This document shows, piece by piece, positions 9,577-24,885 of a stretch of 24,923 bases of DNA. Each line of letters begins with the position of its first letter. Positions within the stretch are counted from its first letter, which is position 1. The notes beneath the pieces are model-generated. The model had not been told where the DNA came from. It ran no database searches and saw only the letters and a program-made list of their open reading frames with translations. The DNA is taken from IMG/VR virus record IMGVR_UViG_3300042484_000046, positions 1 through 24,923 of that record; one strand, 5' to 3'. The position numbers and the translations under genes were made by a program. The stretch is from a virus.

Positions 9577-10170
9577 ATGGCTGATAAAAAGATTTCCGCG
9601 CTGACTGGCGCATCAACTCCCCTTGCTGGCACAGAAGTATTGCCAATTGTGCAGAATGGTGCAACGGTAAACGTGTCTGTTGCAAACCTGACCGCCGGTC
9701 GTGCAGTTGCGATGGCTGGTGGTTCGTTTACCGACAACATTACGCAAAGCACAGCAGCCAAAGGCATCAACTTCACCGCCAACACCCCAGCAGCAGGAAT
9801 GACAAGTCAGTTGCTGGATGACTATGAAGAAGGTACATTTACACTCACAGACCCCGGTGTGAAAGATGCTGTTTCTGGAACTTGGACTTTTGTAAGCGGC
9901 ATTTACACCAAGATCGGCAGACAGGTTACTGTCAATGCGACATTCTCAGGAACTGGACTCGGATTTTCTGCCAACACTGGATATTACAGATTTGATGGAC
10001 TGCCGTTTACTTCCGCAGCATCTTACTCTGGGACTTGGCAAGGCCCGGAAGCATTTAAGGCGACAGCGGGTTTTGTTTTCACCGCTGGTGATCGCTTATG
10101 GCTCCATGCTGCAATCAGCACTCAAACGTCTGATTCTGGAATCATTGTCACAGCAACTTACACTGTCTAA
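9577..10170 (+). CDS. Tail-fibre-like structural protein (197 aa)
   Basis: The N-terminus MADKKISALTGASTPLAGTE, followed by VLPIVQNGATVNVSVANLT, is a module frequent in phage fibre and structural proteins. Residues about 75-197 form a Gly/Thr/Ser-rich beta domain (YEEGTFTLTDPGVKD, YTKIGRQVTVNATFSG, GLPFTSAASYSG) resembling a fibre tip or carbohydrate-binding domain. Leader TAAGGAACAATT gives a good ribosome site. It lies between the adaptor-like protein and the tailspike; a joint adhesin assembly is likely but not provable from sequence. Confidence 0.7.
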   Translation: MADKKISALTGASTPLAGTEVLPIVQNGATVNVSVANLTAGRAVAMAGGSFTDNITQSTAAKGINFTANTPAAGMTSQLLDDYEEGTFTLTDPGVKDAVSGTWTFVSGIYTKIGRQVTVNATFSGTGLGFSANTGYYRFDGLPFTSAASYSGTWQGPEAFKATAGFVFTAGDRLWLHAAISTQTSDSGIIVTATYTV

Positions 10171-10180
10171 GGTATACGCC

Positions 10181-11737
10181 ATGTCGCTCACAAAAGTTAC
10201 GTTTTCGATGATTGATGGCGCACCGCTAAATGTTTTTGACTTTGGCGCAACGGGTGATGGTGTAACGGATGACACAACCGCACTGCAAACAGCAATAACC
10301 TACGCTTTCAATAACAAAATTGGAACTGTTTACCTTCCTAAAGGCACGTACAACATTTCCAAACCTTTGTATGTTTGGGGGTCGGATAACTACATTCGAT
10401 CAGGTGTTCAACTTGTTGGCGAGGGCGTTGATTCAACGGTTATCAAGAAAACAAACAACGCCACACCAAATGACGGAAGCTGGAATGCAGCGATTGACGC
10501 TGTTGTCATTATTTCACCCTACCCGGCAAACACCACTGGTGTGCAGATACCGTCAGGCACATACAACCCAGCATTGATCGACATGTCAATTCAGGGTTAC
10601 TCCACCACACCGAACACCTACGGCATCTACACCAAAGACGACTTTGGTCAAGTGAAGATGGAACGGTTGTGCATACTAGGCACCGATACTTGCTTCAGAA
10701 CTGACGCCAACATGTGGCTGTCTTCCTTCAGGAACATTAGCTTGCATCCTGTAACAAACGGCTTTTGGATGGGAAGATCTGGAACATCCATAGACCTTAC
10801 CGATGTGTACGTGCTCGGTGGTTCCGGTGTTGGTTTTAACTTGCAAGCCCTTTACTCCACGGCCAATGCGATTGCTGTTGAAGGTTTTACAGGAACACCA
10901 GTCATCATTCGGTTTGCAAATTGGACCATCAATGGTCTTGGAATCGAGTGTGCGGCAGCAACAGGTCCGGCTGTTCAAGTGTTAAACGGATCGAATGTCG
11001 TTTTGAACACTCCATTGATCTTGGCACCAAGCGCATTTTTGTGCGGTGACAATTGCAAGATGATGGTCAATGGAGCGCAACTTGGGGATGAGTTTGCTCC
11101 TAGTGCCAGAACTGGTTACTTGTGGTTTGTGGCTGGCAGCGGTGCTTTGAGCATCATCAACCTAATTAACTACGACACCTTTGCAACGGCCAACACAGGC
11201 TTTGCGATGGTCACAGACTTTGCCGGTGTAGCACCCTTCACCATCAATCGTCTTTTGGTCAACGCAATCGGAAGCTCCAACACTGACACAGCTGTTGAAT
11301 ATTTCAACTCCTCTAGTCAGCAACTTTTCAGAGTTCGTGGTGATGGTCTTATTCTTACCGGCCTAGCCGCCGGATCTCCTTACAACTTCACATCTGCCAG
11401 CGCAGCAAACCTTGGCGTTGATTCCGGTGGCATTTTGTACCGTTCAACATCTTCTTTGAAGTACAAAGAGAATGTGCAAGACGCAGTGCATGGCCTTGCA
11501 GAAGTGTTGCGACTTCGCTCTGTCACCTATAAAGGCAAGGCAGAGACAGACAGCGGAAAAACTTTTGGTGGCTTAATTGCGGAAGAAGTACATGAGGCTG
11601 GTTTGACCGAGTTTGTCATGTACGCCGAAGACGGGTCGCCAGATGCCATTGCTTATGGACAAATGGTGGCTTTGTTGGTTAAAGCTGTGCAAGAACTTAA
11701 AGCGGAATTTGACGCTTACAAGACATCGCACCCCTAA
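10181..11737 (+). CDS. Tailspike: pectate-lyase beta-helix with C-terminal S74 chaperone
   Basis: Receptor-binding, probably polysaccharide-cleaving spike of 518 aa. The ATG at 10181 follows TAAGG; the frame is open upstream but overlaps the previous gene without support. Residues about 16-36 (LNVFDFGATGDGVTDDTTAL) are the hallmark start of the pectate-lyase-3 right-handed beta-helix, which continues with aromatic- and Gly-rich turns to about 400. The last about 95 residues, from SSLKYKENVQDAVHGL (about 423) through FGGLIAEEVHEAGL and AYGQMVALLVKAVQEL, match the Peptidase_S74 intramolecular chaperone, which helps trimerisation and then cuts itself off at the conserved Ser. The catalytic substrate cannot be named from sequence. 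Confidence 0.85.
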   Translation: MSLTKVTFSMIDGAPLNVFDFGATGDGVTDDTTALQTAITYAFNNKIGTVYLPKGTYNISKPLYVWGSDNYIRSGVQLVGEGVDSTVIKKTNNATPNDGSWNAAIDAVVIISPYPANTTGVQIPSGTYNPALIDMSIQGYSTTPNTYGIYTKDDFGQVKMERLCILGTDTCFRTDANMWLSSFRNISLHPVTNGFWMGRSGTSIDLTDVYVLGGSGVGFNLQALYSTANAIAVEGFTGTPVIIRFANWTINGLGIECAAATGPAVQVLNGSNVVLNTPLILAPSAFLCGDNCKMMVNGAQLGDEFAPSARTGYLWFVAGSGALSIINLINYDTFATANTGFAMVTDFAGVAPFTINRLLVNAIGSSNTDTAVEYFNSSSQQLFRVRGDGLILTGLAAGSPYNFTSASAANLGVDSGGILYRSTSSLKYKENVQDAVHGLAEVLRLRSVTYKGKAETDSGKTFGGLIAEEVHEAGLTEFVMYAEDGSPDAIAYGQMVALLVKAVQELKAEFDAYKTSHP

Positions 11738-16640: not shown

Positions 16641-16649
16641 AGTATAGCA
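16641..16649 (-). promoter_or_regulatory. Probable promoter (extended -10) of homing endonuclease gene
   Basis: Read leftward: TGCTATACT, an extended -10 (TG, one base, TATACT; 5 of 6 to TATAAT). No good -35 is seen. Predicted start near 16634, just upstream of the AAAGGAG ribosome site. On the other strand the site coincides with the region immediately before and including the first base of the gp10-like ATG. Confidence 0.5.
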
Positions 16650-18091
16650 TGAAAACCCAGATTCTTGGTTCAGCGTATGTTGCTCGCAGCGTCAACGCTG
16701 CTGACAATCGCATGATCAATCTGTTCCCGGAACTGATCCCAGAAGGCGGTAAAGAGTCTGGATTCTTAAACCGCGCCCCTGGCCTCAATTTTCTGCAAAC
16801 TGTCGGTCTTGGCCCAATCCGGGCTTTGTGGGCACACCAGACCAATGGCTCTGACTTCTACGTTGTCTCGGGCACTGAGGTTTTTAAACTCACTAGCTTG
16901 ACAGGTACACCCGTTAAGTTGGGCAATGTGTCTGGCACCGGCCCGGTTTCGATTGCTGACAACGGCACGCAAATTTTCTTTGCCTGCAATGGCCCCAGCT
17001 ACATCTACAACGAAGTCACCAACGTCTTTGCCCAGATTACAGACGCTGACTTCCCAGGTGCTGTAACAGTTGCTTACTTGGACGGATACTTTGTATTCAA
17101 CGAGCCCAACAGCCAGCGAGTATGGGTAACCAGTCTGCTGGATGGCCTGTCCGTTGATCCTTCTGATTTTGTCAGTGCCGAAGGGTCACCTGACGGACTG
17201 GTGGCATTGATAGTTGATCACCGCGAAGCCTGGCTGTTTGGTTCTGACTCAGTTGAAGTCTGGTATGACGCAGGCAATGCAGACTTCCCCTTGTCCCGCA
17301 TTCAGGGCGCTTTTAACGAGATTGGCTGTGTAGCCCCCTACTCGGTTGCCAAGCTCGACAATGGCCTGTTCTGGCTGGGCACAGATGCGCGTGGACAGGG
17401 CATCGTCTACCGGGCCAACGGATACACAGGCACTAGGGTTTCTACTCATGCTATTGAGTACGCTATCGCCCAGTATGGCAACATCTCGGACGCCTTAGCC
17501 TACACGTACCAGCAGGAAGGTCATTCGTTCTACGTGCTGATTTTCCCCAATGCCAACGCAACCTGGGTGTATGACGTATCGACGCAAATGTGGCATGAGC
17601 GTGCTGGATTTGTGAATGGTGCGTTTACTCGCCATCGTTCTAATTGCCAGTGCAACTTTGAAGGCAACACTGTTGTCGGTGACTTTGAAACCGGCAACAT
17701 CTACACGTTTGACCTAGACATCTATGCTGACAATAGCCAGCCTCAGAAGTGGCTTCGGTCATGGCGTGCGTTGGCACCTGGGCAGAACAACCTGAAACGT
17801 ACATCGCACCACAGCCTTCAGCTTGACGCTGAGACAGGTGTTGGTCTGGTTGTGGGCCAGGGTAGCCAGCCAGAGGCCATGCTACGCTGGTCGGACGATG
17901 GTGGTCACACTTGGAGCAACGAGCATTGGCAGCTTATGGGTGCCATTGGTCAGTACGGTTACCGTACCATCTGGCGGCGTCTGGGCATGACCCTCAAGCT
18001 GCGTGACCGGGTGTATGAGGTGTCTGGTACCGATCCAGTCAAGATTGCCATCATGGGTGCTGAACTTTACGTAACCCCGACAAACGCATGA
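16649..18091 (+). CDS. P22 gp10-like tail hub / DNA-stabilisation protein
   Basis: P22 gp10 closes the portal with gp4 and gp26. The 480-aa product starts MKTQILGSAYVARSVNAADN, RMINLFPELIPEGGKESGFL and NRAPGLNFLQTVGLGPIRAL, the typical start of the Phage_stabilise family, and continues with beta-propeller-like repeats (GTEVFKLTSLTGTPVKLGNV; GIVYRANGYTGTRVSTHAIE). Length matches P22 gp10 (about 470 aa). No ribosome site precedes the ATG, unusual for a late gene here; the homing endonuclease insertion has replaced the upstream sequence. Ends in a four-base ATGA overlap with the needle/fibre gene. Confidence 0.9.
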   Translation: MKTQILGSAYVARSVNAADNRMINLFPELIPEGGKESGFLNRAPGLNFLQTVGLGPIRALWAHQTNGSDFYVVSGTEVFKLTSLTGTPVKLGNVSGTGPVSIADNGTQIFFACNGPSYIYNEVTNVFAQITDADFPGAVTVAYLDGYFVFNEPNSQRVWVTSLLDGLSVDPSDFVSAEGSPDGLVALIVDHREAWLFGSDSVEVWYDAGNADFPLSRIQGAFNEIGCVAPYSVAKLDNGLFWLGTDARGQGIVYRANGYTGTRVSTHAIEYAIAQYGNISDALAYTYQQEGHSFYVLIFPNANATWVYDVSTQMWHERAGFVNGAFTRHRSNCQCNFEGNTVVGDFETGNIYTFDLDIYADNSQPQKWLRSWRALAPGQNNLKRTSHHSLQLDAETGVGLVVGQGSQPEAMLRWSDDGGHTWSNEHWQLMGAIGQYGYRTIWRRLGMTLKLRDRVYEVSGTDPVKIAIMGAELYVTPTNA

Positions 18092-19464: not shown

Positions 19465-19800
19465 ATGACAGTTACCGTCAAAGTCCTGATCCCGGCCAAG
19501 ATTGCCGAAGCGACACAGGTCACCCAGTACACCGCCAATGGCGTCACTACGATCATCGACAAGTTCACTGCCACGAACTACAGCGCCAGTGCTGCCACGT
19601 TGTCGGTCAACTTGGTTACAGTGTCGTTTTCAGCCGGGGATGCCAACTTGATCACCAAGACCAAGACGTTGCAGCCTACCGAGGTGTACACATTCCCCGA
19701 ACTGGTGGGTCAGGTATTGTCACCGGGTGCGTTTATATCTACACTAGCAGGTACTGCCACAGCAATCAACATTCGCGCTTCTGGGCGTGAGGTTTCGTAA
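19465..19800 (+). CDS. Hypothetical structural protein (111 aa)
   Basis: Function not recognised. Beta-rich small protein beginning MTVTVKVLIPAKIAEATQVT, with alternating hydrophobic/Thr strands (TLSVNLVTVSFSAGDANLIT; GAFISTLAGTATAINIRASG), fitting a virion accessory protein. Ribosome site AGGAG lies six bases before the ATG. Its stop and the next gene's start share one base (TAATG), so it is coupled to the cupin gene. Together these two genes occupy the place of P22 gene 14 between needle and gp7, but sequence resemblance to gp14 is not apparent. Confidence 0.7.
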   Translation: MTVTVKVLIPAKIAEATQVTQYTANGVTTIIDKFTATNYSASAATLSVNLVTVSFSAGDANLITKTKTLQPTEVYTFPELVGQVLSPGAFISTLAGTATAINIRASGREVS

Positions 19801-20264
19801 TGCAAGTCACATACGGGCCTGAGTTTTACGCACCAGCGCCTGTAGACATGCGGGCAAAGGTAGAAGCGTTACAGGTAGAAGTATCCAAGCACGAGCAGTA
19901 CGAGCCACCCACTGAGCATTTGTTTCATGGTGGCATGTATTGTCGGCAAGTATGGCGTCCCGCAGGTTGCTTGATTGTCGGGAAAGTCCATAAGAAAGAA
20001 CATTTCTACATGGTCGTATCTGGAACAATTCTTGTAACCACTGACGCTGGTGTAGAACATATTACAGGCCCGAAAGTAATATGCAGCAGTCCGGGCACAA
20101 AACGTGCCGTATATGCTGAAACAGATGCTCTGTGCATGACTTTTCATCGGGTTGATTCAATTACCGTTGAAGATGTAGAATCAGAGCTAGTTGAGGATGA
20201 CCCACATTCCATGTTTGGAGTGGGTAACAAGATAAAAGACCAACTTATTGAGGTGTCGCCATGA
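19800..20264 (+). CDS. Cupin-fold protein (154 aa)
   Basis: The segment at about 55-80 (AGCLIVGKVHKKEHFYMVVSG) matches cupin motif 1 with H64 and H68 and a conserved Gly at 75 (expected: G, five residues, HxH, then E and G; the HxH spacing is altered here). Motif 2 is near 96-116 (SSPGTKRAVYAETDALCMTF, then H116). Metal binding is possible with H64, H68 and H116 but unproven. Phage proteins of this kind are usually uncharacterised, so an enzymatic role should not be assumed. Start and stop overlap both neighbours (one and four bases), tying its expression to the ejection genes. Confidence 0.65.
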   Translation: MQVTYGPEFYAPAPVDMRAKVEALQVEVSKHEQYEPPTEHLFHGGMYCRQVWRPAGCLIVGKVHKKEHFYMVVSGTILVTTDAGVEHITGPKVICSSPGTKRAVYAETDALCMTFHRVDSITVEDVESELVEDDPHSMFGVGNKIKDQLIEVSP

Positions 20265-21124
20265 GTTTTATTGCAGCAGCGTTAATTGGGGGCGGCACAG
20301 CCTTATTGGGTGGATACATGGCATCTCGGGGTGCCCAGTCTGCTGCACAGACTCAGGCAACCGCTGCACAACAACAAGGTGAAACTCAATCACAAGCAGC
20401 CAGAGAGGCTCTTGCCCTTCAGGAGAGAATGTACGAGCGGCAGATTGGTTTACAGGAACCGTACCGCCAAGCTGGCCTAACTGGTCAGAATCGACTGATG
20501 GAACTGATGGGGCTTGGTGGCAATACTGGCGCTGCTGGTTACGGCAAATATGCTCGTGATTTCGGTACTGCTGATTTTCAACAAGACCCAGGTTATGCCT
20601 TCCGATTGTCTGAGGGTCAGAAAGCACTTGACCGACAAGCCGCCGCTCGTGGTGGTTTGATCTCTGGTGGAGCGCTTAAAGCAGCAACTCGATACGGTCA
20701 AGAGATGGGTTCTCAAGAATACCAAAATGCGTTTAATCGTTATCAAACTCAACGTACAAACCAGCTTCAACCATTGGGTAGTCTAATGGCATCGGGTCAG
20801 TCTGCTGCAAGCAATCAAGGTAGTGCTGCTGGTCAGTACGGTGCTTCTGGTGGAAATTTGATTACTGGCGCAGGTCAAGCTATTGGTGCCGGTCAGTACG
20901 GTGCTGGTCAGTCTATGGCAGCAGGTCAACTTGGCGCAGGTAACACTTGGGCCAATGCTTTAGGTGGTGTCGGTAGTGCTTACCAAACAAATGCAATGCT
21001 AAATCGGTTTTACCCTGTTTCTGACTCATCTTCACAAAACATGTCAGGATTTCAAACGCCATACACTCAGCCCACGTATTCAACCACAACGCCAAGACTT
21101 GGCTCTGGTATGTACATCCCATAA
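20261..21124 (+). CDS. DNA-transfer/ejection protein, P22 gp7 position
   Basis: Internal virion protein probably released with DNA. The 287-aa product starts with a Gly/Ala-rich hydrophobic segment (MSFIAAALIGGGTALLGGYM), then a Gln/Ala coiled coil (SAAQTQATAAQQQGETQSQA), the conserved core FQQDPGYAFRLSEGQKALDR, AAARGGLISGGALKAATRYG and EYQNAFNRYQTQRTNQLQPL, typical of phage DNA-transfer proteins. Residues about 180-235 are low-complexity Gly/Gln/Ala with a repeated GQYGA. It follows the cupin gene with an ATGA overlap and GAGG ribosome site. Direct similarity to P22 gp7 is not visible; the assignment uses order, composition and the core motif. Confidence 0.75.
   Translation: MSFIAAALIGGGTALLGGYMASRGAQSAAQTQATAAQQQGETQSQAAREALALQERMYERQIGLQEPYRQAGLTGQNRLMELMGLGGNTGAAGYGKYARDFGTADFQQDPGYAFRLSEGQKALDRQAAARGGLISGGALKAATRYGQEMGSQEYQNAFNRYQTQRTNQLQPLGSLMASGQSAASNQGSAAGQYGASGGNLITGAGQAIGAGQYGAGQSMAAGQLGAGNTWANALGGVGSAYQTNAMLNRFYPVSDSSSQNMSGFQTPYTQPTYSTTTPRLGSGMYIP
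20831..20905 (+). repeat. 15-bp repeat GGTCAGTACGGTGCT (2 copies)
   Basis: Exact copies at 20831-20845 and 20891-20905, 60 bases apart, within the Gly/Gln/Ala-rich part of the gp7-position protein. Part of a degenerate internal duplication. Confidence 0.7.
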
Positions 21125-21133
21125 GGATAAATA

Positions 21134-22492
21134 ATGGCCGATTTAAACGCTCTAATCGCACAAGGTGCCCAGTTTAAGCAACCTGAGTCGCCATTGAACA
21201 TGATGGCGCAGTTGCAGACATTTCAGCAAGGTCAGTCAGCAAATCAGTTGAACCAGATGAGCATTGCTGAAAAGCAACGTGGCATGGAGGAAGCCAACGC
21301 ACTGCGCCGCCTTGACCCAACATCAGCATCGTATTTGCAAGATGTAATGAAAATTAGTCCTGAAAAAGGATTTGCTTTTGCTAAGTTGCAACGAGATGCC
21401 CAAAACGCCGGCACCGAGGGGCAAATCAAAGACGTAAAACTGTTAACCGATAAGTTATCAATGCTTCCACAAGCGTATCAATTAGCAGATACCCCAGAAG
21501 CGTACTTAGCCGTGCATCAATCTGTTCATGCTGATCCCGTACTCGGAAAATGGCTTAAGAGCATAGGTGCAACACCTGAAAAAGGGCTTGCTGCTTTACA
21601 AAACGCCGTTCGAACTGGAACGTTTGATGACTTTCGCATGAAGTCAATGCAGAGTGTTAGCCAGTTGCTTGAGGGCGCGAAGCCAATGTCGGTGGCTGCC
21701 AGTAGTTCTGTGTACGACCCCCGAACAAAAACATTTACGCAAGCACCTGCTGCTCCCGAGAAGCCAGCAGCACCGCCAGCGCCCCCTGTAAGCATTGCTG
21801 AATATGAACGCGCTAAAACAGACCCTGCGTTTATGACGTTTTTGCGAGAGCGTGCTGCTGCTCAACGTGCGCCACGTCCTGAAGCAGCGCCGCGAACACA
21901 GCAAGTAACACTGAGCGACGGAAGCATTGGAATTATAAACATGGACACCGGCGCAATCACATCCGCAACTTTAGGCGGCGCTGGTGTTAAAGGCAAGGAT
22001 TCGACAAAGACTGCCGTTTCGGAACAACAAGCCGCGTACAACATTGGGCGAGTGTTGACTGCCGCTAACGAAATCAAAAACATTAGCAGTACAGACCCGT
22101 CATCAGTGCAACCCGGCGCTGCAGAGGCTTTGGCCGCTTCTGTTGGTATGGGCGGAACGGCAAACTTAGCCCGTAGTGCAAACCGCCAAATCGTGCAGGG
22201 CGCACAACGTGATGCTCTTGATGCGCTGCTGTATTTGGCGACTGGTGCCGCGTATAACAAAGAACAGTTGCAAGGTCAAATGGAAGCGTATATCCCCGCG
22301 TACACTGACAAGCCTCCACAACTAGCTGCCAAAAAAACGCGCATGACTGAATTAATTAAAAGCGCAAAAATACGCGCAGGCAACGCGTGGACGCCGGAAA
22401 TGGACACGGCATTAAAGTCACTGATGGCACCAGCAGGCGCCGCGACACCCGCTGCCGGTGGAGCTACTGGTGAATGGAAGGTAATTAAATAA
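21134..22492 (+). CDS. Probable ejection protein, P22 gp20 position
   Basis: A 452-aa Gln/Ala-rich helical protein beginning MADLNALIAQGAQFKQPESP and ANQLNQMSIAEKQRGMEEAN, with a Pro/Ala-rich hinge at about 207-230 (APAAPEKPAAPPAPP) and a helical end (LAAKKTRMTELIKSAKIRAG) plus a Gly/Ala tail. No enzyme motif was found. It stands between gp7-position and gp16-position genes, the place of P22 gp20, and shares the composition of ejection proteins. Ribosome site AAGGATA lies before the ATG; the stop overlaps the next start by one base (TAATG). Function is inferred from position. Confidence 0.65.
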   Translation: MADLNALIAQGAQFKQPESPLNMMAQLQTFQQGQSANQLNQMSIAEKQRGMEEANALRRLDPTSASYLQDVMKISPEKGFAFAKLQRDAQNAGTEGQIKDVKLLTDKLSMLPQAYQLADTPEAYLAVHQSVHADPVLGKWLKSIGATPEKGLAALQNAVRTGTFDDFRMKSMQSVSQLLEGAKPMSVAASSSVYDPRTKTFTQAPAAPEKPAAPPAPPVSIAEYERAKTDPAFMTFLRERAAAQRAPRPEAAPRTQQVTLSDGSIGIINMDTGAITSATLGGAGVKGKDSTKTAVSEQQAAYNIGRVLTAANEIKNISSTDPSSVQPGAAEALAASVGMGGTANLARSANRQIVQGAQRDALDALLYLATGAAYNKEQLQGQMEAYIPAYTDKPPQLAAKKTRMTELIKSAKIRAGNAWTPEMDTALKSLMAPAGAATPAAGGATGEWKVIK

Positions 22493-24885
22493 TGGCAACT
22501 CAAATTTACAAGGTGCGCGACCCTAGCGGTGTTATCCGCGAAATTGAGGGGCCAGCAGGTGCTACCGACGAACAGGTCATATCAAAAGCCAAAGAATTAT
22601 TTGCAACACCTACCGCGCCAAGTAGCGGTGTGCCTGTTGGTCGTCAAGGCGTCACTGGTATTACTCAACAACCATTAACTGGTGTTAGTGGTGTAATAAA
22701 ATCTATTGGCGCACCATTTCTTCAAGCATTGTCCGAGGGCGTTATTAAAGGTGGCGGCAATGTCATGTTTGGTGGTCAGCAACTTGTCGGAAAAGGATTG
22801 TCGGCACTGGGTGCGACTGAAACAGGTCAGTCACTAATTGAAGACGCGGCGCGTCGCCAAGCTGAAACGCAAGCCCGTGTTGCACCGTTTAAACAAGAAT
22901 ACCCAATCTCTACCGGAATTGGCGAATACGGTACAGAGGCCGCAATACTAGCGCCTTTAGGTGGTGTACTCGCTAAACCAGTTGCGGCTTTAGCAACCCG
23001 CGCTCCAGCACTTGCGCCAGCACTTGCACCAGTTGCAAACGCGCTACGCTCCTCGGGTTTTAGCTCGGGACTGGTTACAAAGGGCGCTCCGTTGGCAACA
23101 CGCGCTGCCGACATAGGTGCGCGAATCGTAGGTGGTGGTGTCACAGGTGGAGCAACTGCTGCACTTACGAACCCTGATGAGATAAGCACGGGTGCTGGTG
23201 TTGGTGCGGGTCTAGCTGTTGCAGCACCCCCACTGGTAAAGATAACAGCAAAAAGCCTTGGGTTTTTGAAAGATGCGTTTACTGGTCGATTGGGTGAAGT
23301 TGGTGCCGGAAGAATTGCCCGTGATGTAGCAGGTGATCGTATCGGTGCTATTCGTGCAGCACTGCTTGCGTCACCTGCCGATGTTACGGCAGCCCAGGCC
23401 ACATCGGGCATTCAAAAAGATGCTTGGCAAGCCCTTGGGGCTATGACTAGTAAAACTGATGACATTTCATCATTGTTAAAACGTCAGGCAGCAGACGATC
23501 TAGCGCAACTGCAACGCATGGCTGAGGGTGGAAACGCCACTGAAATGCGAACGGCATATGATCAATCAATTAAACGATTGAATCAGTTAACTGCCGACAT
23601 GCGTAATGTTGAACTGCAAGCGGCTAACCAAGCTGCTCAAACAACCAATCGCTTGGCCCCACAAATGCAACAACGCGACGCAAGCATGGTCAATGCTTTG
23701 CGTGAAGGTATGCCTGCAAACTTACCATCTGGTGCCGCAGGGACTCCAGCGCCGGGGGTATCAGGAATTAATGCGGCGACTGAAGCCGCGCAACAAGCAG
23801 CAATTGCAGCTAAAGGTAAACCGGGCTTTTTGACTGCCGGTACCCGCTCGCAAGAATGGCAAGAGACATCCGATGCTTTTGCAGAGATCGCCAAGCAACG
23901 CCGTGCAGAAGCCGGGTTTATTGAACGTCAAATTGGCAGCTTGGAGGACTACGGGTTGCGCCCACTGGACGCTGGCAGCATCACCGCAGCAATTGACGCA
24001 AAACTTTCCACACCGGGACTTCGTGCAAGTTCCAATATGACCAAAGTATTGCAAGCTGTCAAAGAAGATATTGCTAATTTGACCGCCAAAGGGGGCGGCG
24101 TTATTGACGCACATGATTTATACACTCTTCGCAAGGAAGGTATCAATGAGCGAATTATGCAGATTCTTGGTCAAACTGATCCAAAAGTCAGTGCCAAAGT
24201 AACACGGGGCGTGCTTCAAGAAGTTCGCCCATTGATTGATGATGCCATTGAAAAAGCTGGCGGTACTGGCTGGAGAGATTACCTTAAGACTTACTCGCAA
24301 GGAATGCAAGCCATTGACCAAAAAGCAATGGCTGCTGAAGCTGCTAAGTTGTTTAAAGACTCACCTCAAGAATACGTGAGACTCGTACGCGGCAACAACC
24401 CAGACGCGGTGGAGGCTATATTTGGCCCTGGCAGCTATGACATCTTTAAAGAAATGGGCAGCAAAATGCCCACGTTGGAAAAACTAGCGTCCAATGTTGA
24501 ATGTACAGCGTCAATGAAGGAAGCAGCAGCAGCAGGCACAGAAAAACTGGGCGATGTTATTGGCGCTGATTCGTTTCGCTTCCGTATTCCATTTGTATTG
24601 TCTAAGGGTGCGACTGCCGCAAACTTAACATTGGACATGTTGGAAAAACGACTGGATAAAAAAATATTTAGTGAATTGCAAAAAGGCATGGCATCTGGTA
24701 AAAGTGCTTTGGAGATGCTTGATACACTACCCGCATCTGACCGTAGTGAGGTTCTTCGTGTGCTGGCCGATCCGTCATCGTGGGGTAAAACTGGCGCCGT
24801 TGCCGCAAGAGCTGTAACACGTCAAGAACAACCTAACAAATTGGCACCAAGCTCTACAAACGTTAACGCACTGACAGGTCAATAA
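22492..24885 (+). CDS. Probable ejection protein, P22 gp16 position (797 aa)
   Basis: Large internal virion protein. Residues 4-38 (QIYKVRDPSGVIREIEGPAG, ATDEQVISKAKELFA) form a small domain that I know from N-termini of phage and related injected proteins. Residues about 70-260 are Gly/Ala-rich and hydrophobic with possible membrane-inserting stretches (IVGGGVTGGATAALTNP; GAGVGAGLAVAAPPLVKI), as expected of a protein that helps DNA cross the inner membrane. The remainder is long helical (DDLAQLQRMAEGGNATEMRT; MRNVELQAANQAAQTTNRLA). No lysozyme or peptidase motif seen. AAGG lies before the ATG. Role from position and composition. Confidence 0.7.
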   Translation: MATQIYKVRDPSGVIREIEGPAGATDEQVISKAKELFATPTAPSSGVPVGRQGVTGITQQPLTGVSGVIKSIGAPFLQALSEGVIKGGGNVMFGGQQLVGKGLSALGATETGQSLIEDAARRQAETQARVAPFKQEYPISTGIGEYGTEAAILAPLGGVLAKPVAALATRAPALAPALAPVANALRSSGFSSGLVTKGAPLATRAADIGARIVGGGVTGGATAALTNPDEISTGAGVGAGLAVAAPPLVKITAKSLGFLKDAFTGRLGEVGAGRIARDVAGDRIGAIRAALLASPADVTAAQATSGIQKDAWQALGAMTSKTDDISSLLKRQAADDLAQLQRMAEGGNATEMRTAYDQSIKRLNQLTADMRNVELQAANQAAQTTNRLAPQMQQRDASMVNALREGMPANLPSGAAGTPAPGVSGINAATEAAQQAAIAAKGKPGFLTAGTRSQEWQETSDAFAEIAKQRRAEAGFIERQIGSLEDYGLRPLDAGSITAAIDAKLSTPGLRASSNMTKVLQAVKEDIANLTAKGGGVIDAHDLYTLRKEGINERIMQILGQTDPKVSAKVTRGVLQEVRPLIDDAIEKAGGTGWRDYLKTYSQGMQAIDQKAMAAEAAKLFKDSPQEYVRLVRGNNPDAVEAIFGPGSYDIFKEMGSKMPTLEKLASNVECTASMKEAAAAGTEKLGDVIGADSFRFRIPFVLSKGATAANLTLDMLEKRLDKKIFSELQKGMASGKSALEMLDTLPASDRSEVLRVLADPSSWGKTGAVAARAVTRQEQPNKLAPSSTNVNALTGQ

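Follow-up and report, generated by a model that had tools for sequence, protein, structure and literature searches.

A cupin encoded beside the small ejection protein of short-tailed phages as a possible accessory factor for its assembly or maturation

In the viral DNA analyzed here, a cupin of 154 amino acids is encoded directly before a small ejection (pilot) protein of the P22 gp7 / T7 gp14 kind, and we propose, with a probability of about one in two, that the cupin is an assembly or maturation accessory factor dedicated to this neighbor. The proposal follows from the conservation of the partner across otherwise unlike genomic backbones and from the fusion of the cupin to SET domains, or its pairing with GNAT enzymes, in relatives. 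An ejection protein has to remain inert inside the head, traverse the portal and then enter membranes, and how phages prepare it is, to our knowledge, an open question. A partner gene that is kept in P22-, BPP-1- and T7-type phages and is tied in two ways to protein-modifying enzyme families makes such preparation testable. If true, the proposal would also correct the "short tail fiber/adhesin" label borne by many records, a point of relevance to host-range prediction. Among the papers listed in literature searches, we found none linking a cupin to ejection proteins.

The window, that is, the whole stretch of 24,923 nucleotides (positions 1 to 24,923 of IMG/VR record IMGVR_UViG_3300042484_000046), holds a block whose gene order is that of P22 genes 10-26-14-7-20-16. 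This agrees with the P22 gene 14 position given to the cupin in a preliminary description made from the sequence alone. The features of the block are as follows.

16649 to 18091, + strand: P22 gp10-like head-closure protein Hc3 of 480 aa, which marks the left edge of the block (phrog_578, E 1.3e-133; relatives in 61 phage records).
18088 to 19455, + strand: needle/fiber-like protein, 455 aa, assigned by its position, that of P22 gene 26.
19465 to 19800, + strand: jelly-roll protein, 111 aa, optional and probably fiber-associated (AlphaFold2, VIA-align, presence in 40/83 window-type loci).
19798 to 19802, + strand: TAATG stop-start overlap of the 111-aa gene and the cupin gene (sequence).
19800 to 20264, + strand: predicted cupin, 154 aa, of the phrog_12032 / phrog_24280 family (PHROG profile, AlphaFold2, Foldseek, VIA-align).
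19983 to 20003, + strand: cupin motif 1, with K62 (19983-19985), H64 (19989-19991) and H68 (20001-20003) (sequence and conservation, set against the general cupin pattern).
20103 to 20147, + strand: R102 (20103-20105), at the canonical His place of motif 2, and an extra H116 (20145-20147) (same basis).
20261 to 20264, + strand: ATGA start-stop overlap of the cupin and ejection genes (sequence; a -4 overlap in 76/82 window-type loci).
20261 to 21124, + strand: small ejection protein of the P22 gp7 type, 287 aa, with a hydrophobic helix of Gly/Ala type at its N-terminus (phrog_598 DNA ejection, E 6.2e-32).
21134 to 22492, + strand: gp20-type ejection protein, 452 aa, assigned by position in the P22 gene order.
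22492 to 24885, + strand: gp16-type ejection protein, 797 aa, assigned in the same way.

The two reading frames at the center of the preliminary description, of 111 and 154 aa, are thus where it had placed them, as are H64, H68 and H116 of the cupin. Both of its proposed couplings can be read directly: the stop TAA of the first gene (19798-19800) lends its final A to the ATG of the cupin (19800-19802), and the start of the ejection gene (20261-20263) overlaps the stop of the cupin (20262-20264). Of the window-type loci, 82 have a called gene downstream, and 76 of these keep the latter -4 overlap, which is more than chance; the set is redundant, its 83 loci carrying 60 distinct cupins, with the window also counted among them as L081. 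Around the pair, the needle/fiber-like gene is often replaced in relatives, many of which share the N-terminal part only; its product gave no Pfam match and no solved relative. The two large downstream frames gave no match in the PHROG search. Elsewhere in the window, a DUF3987 protein (E 2e-47) occupies the left end (1-1506), and a spike-like protein of 600 aa (9935-11737; pectate-lyase-like, E 2e-19; Peptidase_S74, E 8e-5) is encoded between the portal and scaffold genes; the P22 tailspike gene stands at the end of its block.

The 154-aa protein is, according to its AlphaFold2 model (pLDDT 88.1, from an alignment of 75 sequences), a double-stranded beta-helix of the cupin superfamily (RmlC-like), as the preliminary description had supposed. 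Foldseek matched the model to solved cupins at E 6e-7, and VIA-align placed HP0902 first (Z 11.8, rmsd 2.2 over 86 residues) with many other cupins within 1-2 Z units of it. Pfam Cupin_2 matches weakly (E 0.035), and a single-sequence search found no solved relatives; a profile search of the PDB gave eight matches, mostly cellular cupins, with 1sfn, a cellular protein described as hypothetical, at the top (E 9e-5). The matches include a phage "Tail protein gp15", whose E of 0.94 we attribute to chance and which we set aside as a solved relative. Relatives of the cupin were drawn from 60 phage records and 334 viral-contig stretches; the best 80 of the 334 were kept, and in these the cupin is 65-100% identical. 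The types discussed below are named by best-matching query and not by taxonomy.

The protein matches two PHROG families (phrog_12032, E 5.3e-34; phrog_24280, E 4.3e-29), as do all 75 sequences of the alignment, and it is from the database names of these families, "short tail fiber protein" and "tail fiber adhesin" (PHA00672 in the VvAW1 record), that a competing reading arises, namely a short tail fiber or adhesin that binds or degrades host surface polysaccharide. Annotations of VPMS1 and VvAW1 repeat this label, and a passage on ORF 43 of phiAP1 makes the same assignment while stating that it is without validation (PMC8703784); we found no evidence for what the name implies. A receptor binder would be expected to vary while its surroundings stay constant, and the reverse is seen, the cupin being 65-100% identical where the adjoining needle/fiber often shares no more than its N-terminal part. 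The nearest conserved neighbor of the cupin is moreover the ejection gene, and the window encodes a separate spike-like protein, with a pectate-lyase fold and Peptidase_S74, at 9935-11737. A fiber or adhesin is for these reasons highly unlikely.

Evidence for a dedicated partner comes from the gene that follows the cupin. The neighborhood set comprises 326 loci, reduced to 317 by nine without a callable next gene, and 79 representatives at <70% identity, 77 of them with a callable next gene; the partner was taken as the nearest plausible gene after the cupin. N-termini were scored for a hydropathy of at least 1.3 over 15 residues within the first 30 and for at least 45% G/A/S/T in the first 40, a rule fixed after examples had been seen. 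By this rule, 64 of the 77 next genes of representatives pass vs 11 of 443 other genes in the same loci, the two groups having been called by somewhat different rules (the minimum length was 60 aa for partners and 90 aa for controls, which also had to have ATG and a ribosome site). Across all loci, 289/317 pass. Most partners share a short Gly/Ala-rich hydrophobic helix at the N-terminus (MSGxxTA..., MSWVAAAVVG..., MSFIAAALIGG...), also where BLAST fails to join the proteins. The window's own partner (the L081 copy) passes and matches the phrog_598 DNA ejection profile. In five of the 13 misses (L286, L284, L325, L316, L301) one small gene intervenes before an N-terminally hydrophobic protein; of the other eight, seven look like near-misses by eye and one, L182, has no such protein. 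In some loci of the BPP-1 type (L286, L325, L301) the intervening gene encodes a small basic protein of 64-66 aa.

Where partners are annotated in records, the terms are "DNA ejection" or "internal virion protein", and the partner in VAC_51 matches Pfam T7_gp14 at E 6e-18. A PHROG scan of seven other partners gave two matches each to "internal virion protein" and "DNA ejection", two without match, and for BPP-1 weak matches to spanin-like and unnamed families; since matches are weak or absent for BPP-1 and two others, these are only presumed ejection proteins. The surroundings of the pair change from one phage group to another. Upstream of the cupin stands a needle/fiber gene in P22-like phages (the window, BA3), a GNAT gene in BPP-1, a tail protein in VAC_51 and an RNA polymerase in Alteromonas H4/4; after the partner, a "head-tail adaptor" gene follows in BPP-1 and H4/4, and T7-type internal virion genes, including an internal protein with a lysozyme motif, lie downstream in VAC_51. 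Because these outer neighbors differ between P22-, BPP-1- and T7-like blocks, it is the pair that is conserved and not just an operon. Synteny within a type counts for little, since gene order in structural blocks is inherited; what counts is the comparison between types, which covers about eight labeled cupin types. A pattern scan of genome contigs also found cupin relatives followed by an ejection-type N-terminus in two betaproteobacterial MAGs (L493, L494; one of them Rhodoferax), a hint at a betaproteobacterial host group for the window phage.

The same arrangement would be expected if the cupin were itself a virion part belonging to the ejection or tail complex, for example a portal or nozzle ring or plug in contact with the ejection protein, or else a protein co-ejected with it. 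The cupin gene sits among the tail and ejection genes and is coupled to the latter, the copy in Shewanella phage X14 is annotated "putative structural protein" / "Unknown function structural gene", and the small T7 proteins gp6.7 and gp7.3, encoded near gp14, are reported to have turned out to be parts of the virion (PMC11784390). The profile matches in the PDB, on the other hand, are mostly to cellular cupins, the sole phage tail chain (E 0.94) being treated as a chance match, and the SET fusion and GNAT pairing described below suit an enzyme or adaptor more than a ring in the virion. On balance a virion part is less likely than an accessory factor, of which it is the main rival.

A third set of observations concerns the histidines. 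Cupins carry a first motif, G(X)5HXH(X)3-4E(X)6G, and a second in which His follows PXGXX; by this motif, positions 62, 64, 68 and 102 are the canonical ligand positions. The window cupin reproduces the spacing of motif 1 exactly (G56-X5-K62-X-H64-X3-H68-X6-G75), and the four canonical positions read K, H, H and R; the His of motif 2 is absent, R102 standing in its place. R102 weighs against a classical metal cupin and not against the cupin fold. Conservation was scored over 254 distinct cupin sequences. H64, H68 and H116 are all kept in 60/60 window-type, 68/68 L085-type and 3/3 VAC51-type sequences. The counts for the three are 25/33, 32/33 and 33/33 in the BA3 type and 19/19, 15/19 and 15/19 in the VPMS1 type; Vibrio phage 1.067 has H64 only. 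In the BPP-1 type all three are missing from 70/70 sequences, which mostly have I/T/F there. The BPP-1 type forms one branch of the cupin tree (support 100), and its His loss therefore counts as a single event; the absence of the site from this whole type also means that the three His are not the core of the family.

The preliminary description had proposed H64, H68 and H116 as metal ligands. This holds up in part: the residues are invariant in the 60 window-type sequences, and the loss in 70/70 BPP-1-type sequences and the K62 and R102 at canonical positions speak against it. A metal-ligand set conserved family-wide, when sought, failed to appear (60/60 window-type vs 0/70 BPP-1-type). The combination that the description had thought would undo its proposal, unconserved histidines together with a structure lacking the double-stranded beta-helix, did not arise.

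Could the cupin then be a metal-dependent enzyme whose substrate is a small molecule or a host surface molecule? H64 and H68 lie at canonical ligand positions of the motif, and His occurs at position 102 in three of five VPMS1-type representatives, the same fraction that has His at all of 62, 64, 68, 102 and 116; part of the family may accordingly hold a full metal site, to judge from these residues. Such an enzyme is nevertheless the least probable reading, since the gene retains its partner in the BPP-1 type even though 70/70 of those sequences have lost all three His, two canonical ligands are replaced here by K62 and R102, and a free metabolic enzyme would not need a fixed ejection-gene neighbor.

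Further support for the accessory-factor reading comes from two protein-modifying enzyme families. In Rhodoferax phage P26218, gp30 joins the cupin to a C-terminal SET-like domain whose own Pfam SET match (E 0.015) is below the cut-off. A cupin-SET query found 74 viral loci, or 76 with L414 and L492, and the NHSxxPN motif is present in 68/76; at these loci the N-terminal partner test is passed by 63 of the 68 next genes that could be called. Pfam recognizes SET in 22/23 chosen cupin-SET proteins, and their profile matches solved SET enzymes of the MLL1 type (E 9.6e-10) and of PBCV-1 (E 1.2e-6). SET also occurs in the same ORF as the cupin at 11/42 BA3-type loci, so that the fusion is found in at least two cupin types, while L490 has the cupin without SET. 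Cupin-SET fusions at loci L118-L128 and L418-L492 place SET domains within phage structural blocks. GNAT is confined to one type: its profile matches 77/81 BPP-1-type loci vs 0/329 others, at 70 of these 81 loci (L083, 8540-9004, for example) the gene lies immediately upstream of the cupin, with gaps between -40 and 60 and a -4 overlap in 58 cases, and 30/30 chosen GNAT genes from these loci match Acetyltransf_1. Profiles of GNAT, SET and DUF2824 gave no match in the window, a 24.9-kb fragment of a partial genome.

The distribution of histidines and enzymes can be set on the cupin tree, where many forks are unresolved and four changes of His state and five of SET are needed. All of H64/H68/H116 are present in 15/21 stand-alone rows, 1/27 SET-fused and 0/52 BPP-1-type, and most SET-fused cupins retain H68 plus H62 or H64. 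It is suggestive, and only that, of His loss having followed the gain of an enzyme. The fused SET or adjoining GNAT suggests covalent modification in some lineages. No clear target residue stands out in the partner, since lysine at residues 15-32 varies between types: it is present in 28/47 BPP-1-type, 8/8 BA3-type, 5/5 VPMS1-type, 2/4 L085-type and 2/4 window-type partners, a count that leaves out six misfit representatives.

Published descriptions bear on what the small ejection protein does: T7 gp14 is located at the portal and joins gp6.7 in the extended channel that forms after ejection (PMC11784390), gp14-like proteins are described as small proteins for which membrane crossing is predicted (PMC8954989), and T7 gp14 is also treated in a further paper (PMC10883804). 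The small ejection protein of the P22 gp7 / T7 gp14 kind would thus help to build the channel into the host. An N-terminally hydrophobic protein of this sort presumably needs handling in the infected cell, and the cupin, whose gene directly precedes and overlaps its own, is the best candidate handler. The overlap of the two genes would allow matched synthesis of both proteins; the cupin would bind the newly made ejection protein, perhaps by its hydrophobic N-terminus, keep it soluble, and then see to its delivery or maturation ahead of packing at the portal. Covalent modification may be one part of maturation in SET-fused or GNAT-paired relatives, and in the window type a stand-alone cupin with the H64/H68/H116 set could bind metal or another ligand. 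A bolder version, which we hold to be rather improbable, is a maturation module carried by short-tailed phages, in which the cupin recognizes the ejection protein, a SET or GNAT writer modifies a lysine or the N-terminus, the His set of stand-alone cupins does the corresponding job, and the modification prevents the membrane-active protein from acting while it is still in the head, before ejection. Among the three roles that the preliminary description had left side by side, gene context most favors the assembly helper; the virion part stays viable, and the enzyme modifying a host surface molecule gained no support.

The 111-aa protein appears to stand apart from the cupin and its partner. Its AlphaFold2 model (pLDDT 88.7) is a jelly roll for which VIA-align gave an Ena spore-appendage subunit (Z 10.1), plant HDT2 (8.9), the HFTV1 turret (8.7) and the KHP40 phage cement protein (8.3), scores only slightly above the level that the tool calls common; Foldseek gave no match at E 0.001 or better and a profile search no solved relative. 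Its pairing with the cupin, which the preliminary description had stressed, holds here through TAATG, and it is not a fixed partner: tblastn finds the gene in 40/83 window-type loci, some of which end early upstream, a profile finds it in 38/82 window-type and 4/42 BA3-type loci, and in L044 it lies 3.6 kb away from the cupin. We read the protein, from its model, as a probable optional outer knob or decoration outside the cupin unit. A relative, gp29 of Gordonia phage Samman98 (L326, 7962-8321), lies beside a tail protein gene.

Among known systems, P22 gp14 (151 aa, "head morphogenesis") occupies the same slot as the cupin, with a needle gene before it and the gp7 ejection gene after it, and is similar in size. 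It was considered as a homologue and rejected, with a BLAST E of 0.085 and an hhalign probability of 0.6% (gp14 alignment shallow, Neff 1.5), and it belongs to another Pfam family, DUF2824. The idea that gp14 might be a GNAT relative found no support in hhalign with the same shallow alignment (Neff 1.5). In P22, phiSG1 and APSE-1 the position just ahead of the ejection gene is taken by DUF2824 or a relative, and the cupin and gp14 occur together in 0/410 loci (stretches at most about 18 kb, the gp14 set being dominated by close P22 relatives). This distribution fits replacement within one slot, from which a shared function does not follow. Near the gene 14 slot, "acetyltransferase" genes of Pam1 and PBR31 had no Pfam match at E 0.1, and one PAE2 gene has a weak GNAT match (E 0.027); P22 gp14 itself (L329, 3912-4367) weakly matches a putative glyoxalase, 3ct8, in the PDB (E 0.008). 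Names given to gp14 include "Head assembly protein", in one paper (PMC4837284), and "virion stability factor", in database records.

Closer relatives by descent are BPP-1 Bbp23 and the proteins of Thalassomonas BA3 and Vibrio VvAW1, which belong to the same phrog_12032/24280 family and are encoded, like the window cupin, directly before a small N-terminally hydrophobic protein; BPP-1-type cupins differ in lacking all three His and in mostly having a GNAT gene upstream. P26218 gp30 shares the cupin domain and a next gene annotated DNA ejection, and differs by its C-terminal SET-like domain and by Q at 64 and Y at 116. Among cellular proteins, the Mn cupins of the TM1459 type (Thermotoga maritima) share the predicted double-stranded beta-helix at Z ~10 and 17-19% identity, and in both TM1459 and the window cupin the Glu of the third motif position is replaced by His. 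The metal ligands of TM1459 are H52, H54, H58 and H92. The window cupin, in contrast, has K62 and R102 at His places of TM1459 and an extra H116, its barrel is flanked on both sides by short helices in the model, and it sits in a phage ejection block.
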